Part shown: piece after piece, positions 17,514 through 20,872 of the stretch
Numbering within the stretch: position 1 is the first letter of the stretch
Layout: every line of letters begins with the position of its first letter
Origin: Bacillota bacterium
Lineage (GTDB): Bacteria > Bacillota > Sulfobacillia > JAJZIM01
Length of the DNA stretch: 64,000 nucleotides
Direction: 5' to 3'
Assembly (NCBI GenBank): GCA_021810565.1
Contig: JAJZIM010000001.1
Span: 1 to 64,000, forward strand
The notes under the pieces: model-generated
Seen by the model: only the letters and a program-made list of their open reading frames with translations
What the model was told of the DNA's origin: nothing
The model's database searches: none
Translations under genes and position numbers: made by a program

Positions 17514-18785
17514 GTGGATGAGATGCACGATCTCCTGACGGTATGCGTCATCGCCCGCAACGAAGAAGCCTGGCTGAGCGATTGCCTCGCCTCCGTAGCG
17601 CCCTTAGGGGCATCTCTGGTGGTGGTGGACACCTCCTCTATGGACCGCACGGCCGAGATCGCCCGTGCGCATACCGACCGGGTGGTCACCGCGCCCTGGA
17701 CAGAGGATTTCGCTGCCGCCCGCAACCGAGTCTTGGAGGAGGTGGAGACCCCTTGGGTCTTGATGTTGGACGCCGACGAGCGGCTGTCCAGCGCCGATCC
17801 ACACCTCGTGGCGGAGGTTCTACGGGAGCTAGACCTGGACGGCGTGGCCTTACCGGTCCTCTTCTATGACGGCCCGGTACTGCTGCAACTCATGCGCCAG
17901 CCCCGGCTCTTCCGACGGGAGGGTGCCCGCTACGCCGGGCGGGTCGGTGAGAACTTGAAGCTACCCGGCTCCCGCTGGAGCTTCTTCCCTCGCCCGGAGC
18001 TTCTGGAGATCCACAATCACGGCCACTTCGGCCCCGGCCATGCCCAGCGCGGCAGCGCAAACCGCAACCTGTCCATGCTGGAGGATGAACTGAAGCGGGT
18101 GGAAGAACCGGAACATCGCACCCATATCCTCTGGCAGATAGCGGGAGAGTGGCTCCGAATAGATGACTATCCTCAAGCCGCTAACATATTCCACTTGATT
18201 GTGCGGAACCTGCCGGCTGACGCTGCTCTGCGCGCACCGTGTTTTCTGGGACTGCTGGATGCCTTGGTCGGCATGGCGCGATTTGCGGAACTGTTGGAAC
18301 AAGCAGACCGGCTTTTATCCGACTACCCGGAACTGAAAGTGGCCTGGGGCCGCAAGGCTTACGCCCTCAACAAGCTTGGGCGACCTGCAGAGGCTAAAGA
18401 GGCTATCCTCAAGGGCCTCGCAGCCACCAGTCACCTGACTTGGATGAAGGGCGAGGATGCCGGCATCATTCCGGCTATGTGGTACGATCTGGGCATGACG
18501 CTGCAGCAGTTGGGCGAGTTCCCTGGAGCCATGTACGCGTTCATGAAGCTGAAGGAGGAAGCTTCCGACTGGCAAGGACCCATTCCCGTCGATCGGCTGG
18601 TGCTGCGCCTCCTCGTGGAGGCGGGAGCCATGGGAGAGGCCGAACTCCTCTTCCGGGAGATGTCGGCCCGCAACCCCCAAGCCGAACCGGCTCTGCTGGA
18701 AGACTTCGGCGAACTCGGACATCCCGACTTCGCCTTGGACCTCATGTACCCGGACAAATCCGCAAAGGTTGAGGTGCTGCAATGA
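17514..18785 (+). CDS. family 2 glycosyltransferase with C-terminal TPR-like region
   Basis: 'LTVCVIARNEEAWLSDCLASVAPL...VVVDTSSMDRTAEIARAHTDRV...PWVLMLDADERLS', GT-A/DxD; inside flagellar locus. Confidence 0.88.
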   Translation: MDEMHDLLTVCVIARNEEAWLSDCLASVAPLGASLVVVDTSSMDRTAEIARAHTDRVVTAPWTEDFAAARNRVLEEVETPWVLMLDADERLSSADPHLVAEVLRELDLDGVALPVLFYDGPVLLQLMRQPRLFRREGARYAGRVGENLKLPGSRWSFFPRPELLEIHNHGHFGPGHAQRGSANRNLSMLEDELKRVEEPEHRTHILWQIAGEWLRIDDYPQAANIFHLIVRNLPADAALRAPCFLGLLDALVGMARFAELLEQADRLLSDYPELKVAWGRKAYALNKLGRPAEAKEAILKGLAATSHLTWMKGEDAGIIPAMWYDLGMTLQQLGEFPGAMYAFMKLKEEASDWQGPIPVDRLVLRLLVEAGAMGEAELLFREMSARNPQAEPALLEDFGELGHPDFALDLMYPDKSAKVEVLQ

Positions 18786-20872
18786 AACCCGAGAAAAAGC
18801 CCCACGTGATCCTGTTGTCCGTGGACAGCCTGCGGGGCGACTTCCTGGAGGGCGGCCCCTTCTGGCAAAGCCGTGACCTGCGGCTCAAGATCCCCGAGCT
18901 CTACAGCTTCTCCCGGGGCATGAGCCGCTTCACCCAGGCCCGCTCCACCACCTCCTACACCACCACCGCTCATGCCGGCGTGCTCACCGGGCTGTACCCG
19001 CCCCAGCACGGACTGCGGGCCTTCTACCACCACAGCCTGGACCGGCGGGTCGCCACCTTGGCGGAGATGCTGCGCGCTCAGGGCTACGAGACCATCCTCT
19101 CCACGGACACCCCCGAGCTGTTCGTACCCAACGGGCTGTCCCGCGGCTTTGAGAAGGTCTTCTCCCGGGACGACCACAAGCTGTGGGGATACCTGCACCG
19201 GGTGTGTCAAGAAAAGCCGGTATTCCTCCTGGCCCACTTCTACGACGTGCACCAGCCCTACGGATATTCCGAGTACCCCATCGTCCCCGAAGCCAACGAC
19301 TGGTTCTTCAACGCCATGGAGCAGCTGCACCAGGACCTGGGAACCTCCTACGGCGCCTTCAAGGAGAGCTCCCCCTACCACATGTTCTACTCCCTGCCCT
19401 ACGACGTGGAGACCTCCATCCGCCTATACGCGCGAGGCATCGAGCAGTTCGACCGTTACCGCTTCGCCTGGTGGCGGGGGCAGATCGACCGCCGATTCCC
19501 GGCCGAGGACAGCTACGTCTTCCTCTTCGGCGACCACGGTCAGGCGATATATCCCAAGTTCTTCGGCCACGGCGCCGAACTTCTCGACGGCGTGCTGCAC
19601 ATCCCCCTCTGGGTGCGGGGGCCGGAGTTCTCCCCCGGCGAGCTGCATCACCCGGTGACCTCCGCCGACATCACCCCCACCTTGGTCCGGTTACTCGACA
19701 TACCTTTGGACCATGCCGGAGGTTTCAACGGCCGCCACCTCCTGGAGGCGTCTCCCCGGCCCCTGTACTCCGAATACTGGAAGAGCCAGGTGCACACGGA
19801 TACCCGGGACGGGCTGCCCCCCATCCGCCAGGACGATTCGGGGGAGTTCTTGGTGCCCTCCGACCTGGAGACCAAGAACTGCATCGGGCAGCGGCGGGTG
19901 GACGCGCCGGACGGCACCGCCCTGGTCGAGAACGAACCCGACCTGGCCGACCTCGCGCCCGAATCCCCGCGGGACGGCGTGGAGCGCATCATCCGCGGTC
20001 TGGATGGCACTTTCGAGGACGGGGAGTCCTTCCTGAAAACCGCCCAGCAGGTGGAGCATTTGGGCTGGCAGACGGTGGTGCTGGAGAAGCTGTCCCAGCA
20101 CAAACCCCAGGACTACTACCGCTTCAACGACGAGCCCGCCGACGGCACCCACCCCCTCTTCGACCTAGCCCGGCAGCTCCATGCCGGTTCCTTCGCCCGC
20201 CAAACCCCGGTGCTCCCCCTGAGCGAGGAGCTGCAGGGCAAGCTCAGGCGGGCACGCCAGACCGTGGAGGCGGCCCTGAAGCGCTTCACCCCCCACTTGG
20301 CCGTGGCCTTCACCGGCGGCAAGGACTCCCTGGTGGTGCTGCACCTGTTCCATCAGGCGGGTTTTCGCGGCCCGGTGATCAACATCGACACCACCGTGGA
20401 ATTCCCGGAGATCTACGCCTACCGGAACCACCTGGTGGAGCTATGGGGCATGGACCTGCACGTGTTCACCAACCACGAGGCCCTGAATGAGATCGTGGTC
20501 GCCCAAGACAAGGAGCATTGCTGCCATCTCCTGAAGACCCTCCCCCTGCAGCAGGCCATCCGGGAACTGGGGCTGCAGGCGGTGGCGACAGGGGTGCGCC
20601 GCGACGAGTCGCCCGCCCGGGCCCAGGAGACCTCCTTCTCGCCCCGCCCCGACCACATGCGGGTGCACCCCATCGTGGAGTTCACGGAGCAGGACGTCTG
20701 GACCTACATCGCCCACGAGGGCCTGCCCTACTGCCCCCTGTACGACAAGGGGTACCGCAGCCTGGGCTGCCTCCCCTGCACCCAGAAGGCCACCGGCCCT
20801 GCGGAGCGCAGCGGGCGCGCCCAGGATAAGGAGCAGATCATGCAGCGGCTGCGGGAACATGGCTACTTCTAG
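18782..20872 (+). CDS. fusion: alkaline-phosphatase/sulfatase-superfamily domain + APS/PAPS-reductase-like (PP-loop) domain
   Basis: N-term 'VILLSVDSLRGDFL...SYTTTAHAGVLTGLYPPQHG...VFLFGDHGQ'; C-term 'LAVAFTGGKDSLVVLHLFHQAG...CCHLLKTLPLQQAI...GCLPCTQK'. One uninterrupted 696-aa ORF; starts 4 nt inside the GT gene. Confidence 0.88.
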   Translation: MKPEKKPHVILLSVDSLRGDFLEGGPFWQSRDLRLKIPELYSFSRGMSRFTQARSTTSYTTTAHAGVLTGLYPPQHGLRAFYHHSLDRRVATLAEMLRAQGYETILSTDTPELFVPNGLSRGFEKVFSRDDHKLWGYLHRVCQEKPVFLLAHFYDVHQPYGYSEYPIVPEANDWFFNAMEQLHQDLGTSYGAFKESSPYHMFYSLPYDVETSIRLYARGIEQFDRYRFAWWRGQIDRRFPAEDSYVFLFGDHGQAIYPKFFGHGAELLDGVLHIPLWVRGPEFSPGELHHPVTSADITPTLVRLLDIPLDHAGGFNGRHLLEASPRPLYSEYWKSQVHTDTRDGLPPIRQDDSGEFLVPSDLETKNCIGQRRVDAPDGTALVENEPDLADLAPESPRDGVERIIRGLDGTFEDGESFLKTAQQVEHLGWQTVVLEKLSQHKPQDYYRFNDEPADGTHPLFDLARQLHAGSFARQTPVLPLSEELQGKLRRARQTVEAALKRFTPHLAVAFTGGKDSLVVLHLFHQAGFRGPVINIDTTVEFPEIYAYRNHLVELWGMDLHVFTNHEALNEIVVAQDKEHCCHLLKTLPLQQAIRELGLQAVATGVRRDESPARAQETSFSPRPDHMRVHPIVEFTEQDVWTYIAHEGLPYCPLYDKGYRSLGCLPCTQKATGPAERSGRAQDKEQIMQRLREHGYF

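Follow-up and report, generated by a model that had tools for sequence, protein, structure and literature searches.

We analysed a 64,000-nucleotide stretch of a Bacillota genome (class Sulfobacillia; contig JAJZIM010000001.1, positions 1 to 64,000; hereafter the window) in which one open reading frame (ORF) joins an alkaline phosphatase (AP)-superfamily domain to a PP-loop (PP) domain. The ORF, which like the other features described below lies on the forward strand unless stated otherwise, runs unbroken from an ATG at 18782 to 20872 and encodes 696 amino acids. Pfam recognises both domains, in agreement with the initial annotation of a two-domain protein: PF00884 (Sulfatase) at residues 7–307 (18800–19702; E = 1.5e-19) and a PP-loop domain of the CysD clade at residues 480–696 (20219–20869), within which PF01507 (PAPS_reduct) matches residues 506–669 (E = 9.9e-48). 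They are connected by a DUF4214-like linker region (19694–20197), where PF13946 is called in many homologues. At the position of the sulfatase CxPxR motif, the AP half aligns a TxxxH nucleophile motif (T60 to H64; 18959–18973). The PP half contains the ATP PP-loop FTGGKDS (residues 510–516; 20309–20329), the pair C580–C581 (20519–20524) and a CLPC motif (C663–C666; 20768–20779), three elements that the initial annotation had noticed and that alignment and a residue table confirm; the four cysteines are candidate [4Fe-4S] ligands. Its C-terminus, ERSGRAQDKEQIMQRLREHGYF (20804–20869), is CysD-like in the profile alignment and residue table and stands where reductases carry ECGLH. AlphaFold2 produced a confident two-domain model (mean predicted local distance difference test score 85.6, predicted template modelling score 0.86; 48-row alignment). 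No signal peptide or transmembrane segment was apparent in a crude hydropathy scan, and the protein is predicted to be cytoplasmic.

The fusion is embedded in a flagellar locus. Its start codon falls inside the stop codon of the upstream gene, a GT2 glycosyltransferase with tetratricopeptide repeats (17514–18785), the glycosyltransferase ending at 18785 and the fusion starting at 18782 (a 4-bp ATGA overlap). This overlap and the Pfam assignments of the neighbours bear out the earlier description of a gene coupled to a glycosyltransferase and flanked by fliS (17108–17497; PF02561, E = 3.2e-25) and by fliW (20859–21380; PF02623; possibly with its real start codon at 20895, an ATG) and csrA (21385–21654; PF02599, with NF002469 above its cut-off). 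Upstream, in order, are flgK (9627–11384, inside a longer ORF at 7974–11384; TIGR02492, 335 bits), flgL (11396–12370; TIGR02550, 232 bits against a cut-off of 127), an S-adenosylmethionine-dependent methyltransferase gene (12415–13449), the flagellin gene fliC (13502–15085), fliD (15161–16588) and a GNAT acetyltransferase gene (16554–17108). The centre of FliC is rich in serine and threonine (31% S+T), which is compatible with O-glycosylation but no proof of it. The methyltransferase may be a second enzyme modifying flagellin or its glycan. Downstream of csrA follow a gene for an RmlA-type glucose-1-phosphate thymidylyltransferase (21833–22897; TIGR01208, 478 bits) and rmlC-like, rmlB-like and rmlD genes for dTDP-rhamnose-type sugars (23700–26034). 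Between rmlA and rmlC, on the reverse strand (22901–23613), reading of the translations points to ORFs for a PIN-domain (VapC-like) and a FitA/VapB-like protein, possibly a toxin–antitoxin pair inserted in the sugar operon.

The link between the fusion and this flagellar and glycosyltransferase operon is real and conserved in one sister genome (G001), the only other genome from the window's order that was compared. Its contigs carry flgK, flgL, the methyltransferase gene (61% identity), fliC, fliD, fliS, the glycosyltransferase gene (58% identity, same place) and the fusion in the order seen in the window, with no match to the GNAT gene in the operon. The sister fusion, broken by a contig end, is 70% identical to that of the window and has evolved under purifying selection (dN 0.22, dS 0.87 over 566 codons); the short second contig gave no match for the fliW–csrA side. 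In the class-level search of 154 genomes, neither the fusion nor its PP domain had a close relative beyond the sister genome, and across the order- and class-level searches the flagellar form was seen only in the source genome and this sister.

In total, we found about 25 AP/PP fusions, and proteins with the full-length architecture form at least 13 clusters (33–72% identity). Because of this recurrence, and because the sister genome keeps the flagellar gene order and its fusion shows purifying selection, we regard the architecture as beyond chance. A single-sequence scan of contigs from named genomes returned nothing; an AP-domain profile was needed, and of the 29 loci that it yielded, 15 have a fusion that includes the PP domain. 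Carriers are Desulfovirgula (D. thermocuniculi), the Acididesulfobacter group, metagenome-assembled genomes labelled Nitrospira and Deltaproteobacteria, and other bacteria; the genome G592, which also has the fusion, matches the Desulfovirgula contig. At the fusion loci outside the sister genome, none of the window's flagellar genes had a match; the stretches retrieved for 11 of the 15 non-flagellar loci include glycosyltransferases, sugar-nucleotide genes or an ABC exporter of the O-antigen type, and three related loci (L013, L019 and L027) have the fusion flanked by recR and ffh. Two loci carry a tandem in which a fusion is followed by an AP-only paralogue: in L009 (7836-9995) the PP domain of the fusion is degenerate (FFTREKETA in place of FTGGKDS, cysteines lost), while in L008 it is intact.

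Within the same phylum, a neighbouring class mostly encodes the two halves as separate genes. There, an AP-fold gene of the Thr type comes immediately after a PP gene, within glycosyltransferase clusters, at eight sites in at least seven genomes (G302, G544, G278, the second site of G586, and G587–G590). At the first site of G586, the PP gene is followed by a truncated AP copy (L058:9411-9629) with an intact AP gene just behind, and in G539 the AP gene lies approximately 5 kb from the PP gene. The unfused AP genes, all Thr-type, fall into two subfamilies remote from the fused AP domain (profile scores of 69–119 versus ~370–515). Since these genomes are related, the unfused pairs amount to two or so independent pairings rather than eight, and the fusions count as at least one further pairing. 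We take the fusion and the recurrent adjacency in glycan loci as a Rosetta-stone link, by which the PP and AP activities would work together on glycans. Pairs of an IS607-like resolvase and TnpB (Cas12f1-like, PF07282) lie near PP/AP genes in three genomes (L006:5240-7284, L045:16519-18565 and L066:11770-13816), which suggests mobility of the neighbourhood. On Desulfolutivibrio plasmids, solo PP-loop genes occur beside tatA and cheA/cheD genes (L073:1060-1884 and L074:7809-8765), and these stretches contain no annotated AP gene.

Across the family, the AP-fold protein is mostly encoded in glycan or glycosyltransferase loci, and the link of the fusion to glycans or appendages is well supported. 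The initial annotation had proposed modification of flagellin or its glycan, and had named constant co-occurrence with cys genes instead of flagella as a pattern that would refute it. The linkage holds in the sister genome and the loci elsewhere are mostly glycan loci. Most occurrences of the architecture are outside flagellar loci, but the refuting pattern did not appear, since the fusions have no recognisable cys genes beside them and no separate cysH, sat, cysC or cysN was found in the genome. Because of the flagellar operon link in the sister genome and the family's prevalence in glycan loci, the setting is best read as pointing to modification of flagellin or of the glycan it carries. The same data bear on whether the fusion could instead be a catabolic or housekeeping enzyme, such as a group-removing esterase or a sulfate salvage enzyme, that sits in the flagellar operon by chance. 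Some homologues do have recR and ffh, or other genes without a glycan role, as neighbours, and PF00884 comprises mostly hydrolases, but the kept flagellar order with its coupled glycosyltransferase, the repeated pairing in biosynthetic glycosyltransferase clusters, the missing CxPxR motif and the lack of an apparent signal peptide, unlike in secreted catabolic sulfatases, make this very unlikely.

The PP half is closer to CysD, the catalytic PP-loop subunit of the heterodimeric CysDN ATP sulfurylase, than to the adenosine 5'-phosphosulfate (APS) reductases with which the initial annotation had compared it. When the PP-family profile was searched against the PDB, CysD (1zun) was the best match (5.5e-37), ahead of APS reductase (2goy, 2.2e-25), and scored 130 bits versus ~80 for flavin adenine dinucleotide (FAD) synthase; the alignment to 1zun extended over the C-terminal ER.GR.....GYF, a segment whose score alone is not significant. 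In a maximum-likelihood tree whose references were CysD and CysH of E. coli plus named plasmid-borne CysD and APS reductase proteins (FAD synthase left out), fusions, pairs and solo PP genes grouped with CysD and apart from CysH/APS reductase (support 100/100), with the PP family placed outside the clade of CysD proper. Individual residues follow the same division. The PP half has an intact GGKDS, an ER.GR motif and a KE..M..LR..GYF end, and shares with CysD the PP-loop GKDS, GxRxDE..R, ER.GR and the M..(K/R)..GYF end, whereas in the reductase references the PP-loop is broken and the C-terminus carries ECG(L/I)H, a motif present in all six of them and absent from every aligned fusion and pair member.

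The PP half also differs from CysD in lacking an insert before the C-terminus and in retaining the CC and CxxC cysteines, which CysD references lack at those sites. C580, C581, C663 and C666 are invariant in the fusion-family alignment and follow the Fe–S pattern CC...CxxC, and we infer that they hold a [4Fe-4S] cluster; several PP relatives of the same frame have lost the cysteines. Curated models miss their cut-offs on both sides: NF002537 (138 < 154), TIGR00434 (112 < 165) and TIGR02055 (95 < 235) for CysH, and NF003587 (125.5 < 195) and TIGR02039 (92 < 397) for CysD. A separate structure model of the PP half matches both CysH/APS reductase (template modelling score ~0.75–0.8) and CysD. With assimilatory APS reductases the PP half shares the PF01507 fold and the four Fe–S-type cysteines; it lacks their catalytic ECG(L/I)H cysteine, keeps an ATP-type PP-loop and falls on a separate branch, and on these grounds we rejected the APS-reductase label. 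Judged from its motifs, the PP half is CysD-like in its likely catalysis and reductase-like in its cysteines. A caveat applies to solo archaeal PP homologues: the APS reductase of M. jannaschii, a small 4Fe-4S protein cited in PMC6286981, may lack ECGLH or fall in this clade.

The cysteines could nevertheless point to a reductase-like sulfur chemistry, with an Fe–S PP domain that either forms sulfite from APS or supplies sulfur, so that the glycan would acquire a sulfonate, thio-sugar or phosphorothioate in analogy to DndC, SspD or BrxP. The CC and CxxC motifs are those of APS reductases, there is a weak and partial BrxP match (56 bits), and in type-4 bacteriophage exclusion (BREX) systems a PAPS reductase-family BrxP co-occurs with the AP-fold PglZ (PMC12839542). 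Set against these points are the missing ECGLH, the CysD-like end, the position in the tree, reductase scores below cut-off for all NCBIfam models, loss of the cysteines in several same-frame relatives and a genome in which no APS-making enzyme was found elsewhere; we consider such chemistry quite unlikely. What the two-domain protein shares with type-4 BREX is the combination, within a single system, of a PP-loop protein of the PF01507 type with an AP-fold protein (PMC12839542), but the fusion has a different AP family, matches BrxP only weakly and has no other recognised BREX genes at its locus. A role in defence (type-4 BREX, or Ssp or Dnd phosphorothioation) was rejected, there being no SspD or DndC match and the neighbours being flagellar and glycan genes.

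The AP half has the alkaline phosphatase superfamily fold (PF00884, Foldseek) and a DHG metal motif. Its nearest solved folds are choline sulfatase (6g5z, the best Foldseek match), arylsulfatases and phosphonate monoester hydrolases, and D251-H252-G253, D155 and H157 are invariant in the fusion family. In the active site, T60-T-T-A-H64 stands in place of the sulfatase C/S-x-P-x-R; TxxxH is nearly invariant in the family, and the unfused AP partners carry TxPxH. Since T60xxxH64 replaces CxPxR, we excluded a formylglycine (type I) sulfatase acting as a hydrolase. The best fold match is to a type I sulfatase (choline sulfatase), from which the AP half is set apart by this Thr-xxx-His, its predicted cytoplasmic location and its biosynthetic setting.

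AP-fold phosphotransferases typically use a Thr nucleophile, and a phospho-transfer counterpart can be drawn up accordingly: the PP domain would adenylylate an organophosphate (as FAD synthase does with flavin mononucleotide) to an AMP-activated head group, and the AP domain would move the phospho-head group to a glycan, as LtaS/EptA-type enzymes do from lipids. The lipoteichoic acid primase 4uop among the AP profile matches and the close solved relationship of the PP domain to FAD synthase fit this scheme. It is opposed by the grouping of the PP domain with CysD, in a tree that left FAD synthase out, by the 130 versus ~80 bits and by the genetic proof of AP-fold glycan sulfation (PMC11980604), and we think it unlikely. 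Sulfation is the best, if unproven, chemistry for the fusion, with phosphate chemistry as its main, less likely rival.

In the genome assembly (99.4% complete), we found no other gene for sulfate activation. Family searches found no Sat and no APS kinase (cysC), no TIGR02034 match for CysN exceeded its cut-off, and a single-family search returned the fusion's PP domain as the sole PF01507 match, so that the separate cysH proposed as a check was not found. The earlier remark that sulfate assimilation genes are not visible nearby also extends genome-wide for the genes tested. If the fusion uses activated sulfate, no other tested gene could make it.

We propose, with a probability of about 0.5 and on computational grounds, that the fusion is a self-contained glycan-sulfating enzyme, acting here most likely on the flagellin glycan. 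The C-terminal PP-loop domain would cleave ATP and adenylylate sulfate to APS as CysD does, a step suggested by its kinship with CysD. The N-terminal AP-fold domain, with its Thr nucleophile, would then detach the sulfuryl group of APS and place it on the hydroxyl of a sugar, as its setting and the archaeal proteins Agl30 and Agl31 suggest. Sulfate is the presumed substrate, APS the presumed donor and the flagellin glycan the presumed acceptor, most likely built by the neighbouring glycosyltransferase and possibly containing rhamnose; in other bacteria, the acceptor may be an exopolysaccharide or O-antigen-like glycan. More tentatively, at somewhat less than an even chance, sulfation would take place within one polypeptide and independently of CysN and 3'-phosphoadenosine 5'-phosphosulfate (PAPS), the [4Fe-4S] CysD-like domain passing APS to the AP-fold sulfotransferase for flagellar glycan here and surface polysaccharides elsewhere, with no other sulfate-activation gene found.

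There is precedent for the second step. In Halobacterium, the AP-superfamily proteins Agl30 and Agl31 sulfate the N-glycan of the S-layer protein, and archaellins carry the same glycan type (PMC11980604). Sulfation of the N-linked tetrasaccharide by the AP-superfamily proteins VNG1056C and VNG1057C was shown by deletion and heterologous expression, and Agl31 is cytosolic (PMC11980604); in Haloferax, Agl7 has a part in sulfating a lipid-linked sugar (PMC3871713). The H. salinarum system resembles ours in its AP-superfamily proteins, glycan locus and glycan type on a motility appendage, and differs in having an archaeal N-glycan and no PP-loop fusion. The initial annotation's 'undescribed' chemistry was therefore too strong, as AP-fold sulfotransferases already make sulfated appendage glycans in Halobacterium (PMC11980604).

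Several observations weigh against sulfation by the fusion. The likeness to Agl30 and Agl31 is one of superfamily and locus, and the haloarchaeal 'sulfatase' hits were weak. CysD needs the GTPase CysN, for which no match over cut-off was found here, and the formation of APS, being strongly unfavourable, has to be pulled. The known Thr-nucleophile PF00884 enzymes LtaS, EptA and OpgB transfer phosphoryl groups; FAD synthase belongs to the same PP-loop family, and the adenylylated substrate may not be sulfate. The reductase-type cysteines are kept without having a role in the sulfation model, the PP domain of the L009 fusion is degenerate, and four fusion loci (the recR–ffh group L013, L019 and L027, and L029) have no glycan gene nearby.

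Known bacterial glycan sulfation runs via PAPS and dedicated sulfotransferases. The parts of the fusion have known relatives, and a limited search of the open literature found no description of the AP/PP combination; a single-protein sulfation enzyme decorating the flagellar sugar coat would likely be undescribed before. The papers cited above do not name the sulfate donor of the archaeal AP-fold sulfotransferases. The CysD-like/AP-fold fusion and the repeated adjacency point to a donor, and the two-domain enzyme lets that donor be tested. If the proposal is true, the glycans of bacterial flagellin would be a site of sulfation or phospho-modification, and in anaerobes and in uncultured lineages the PP–AP pair would be a marker for surface glycans that are sulfated or phosphorylated.

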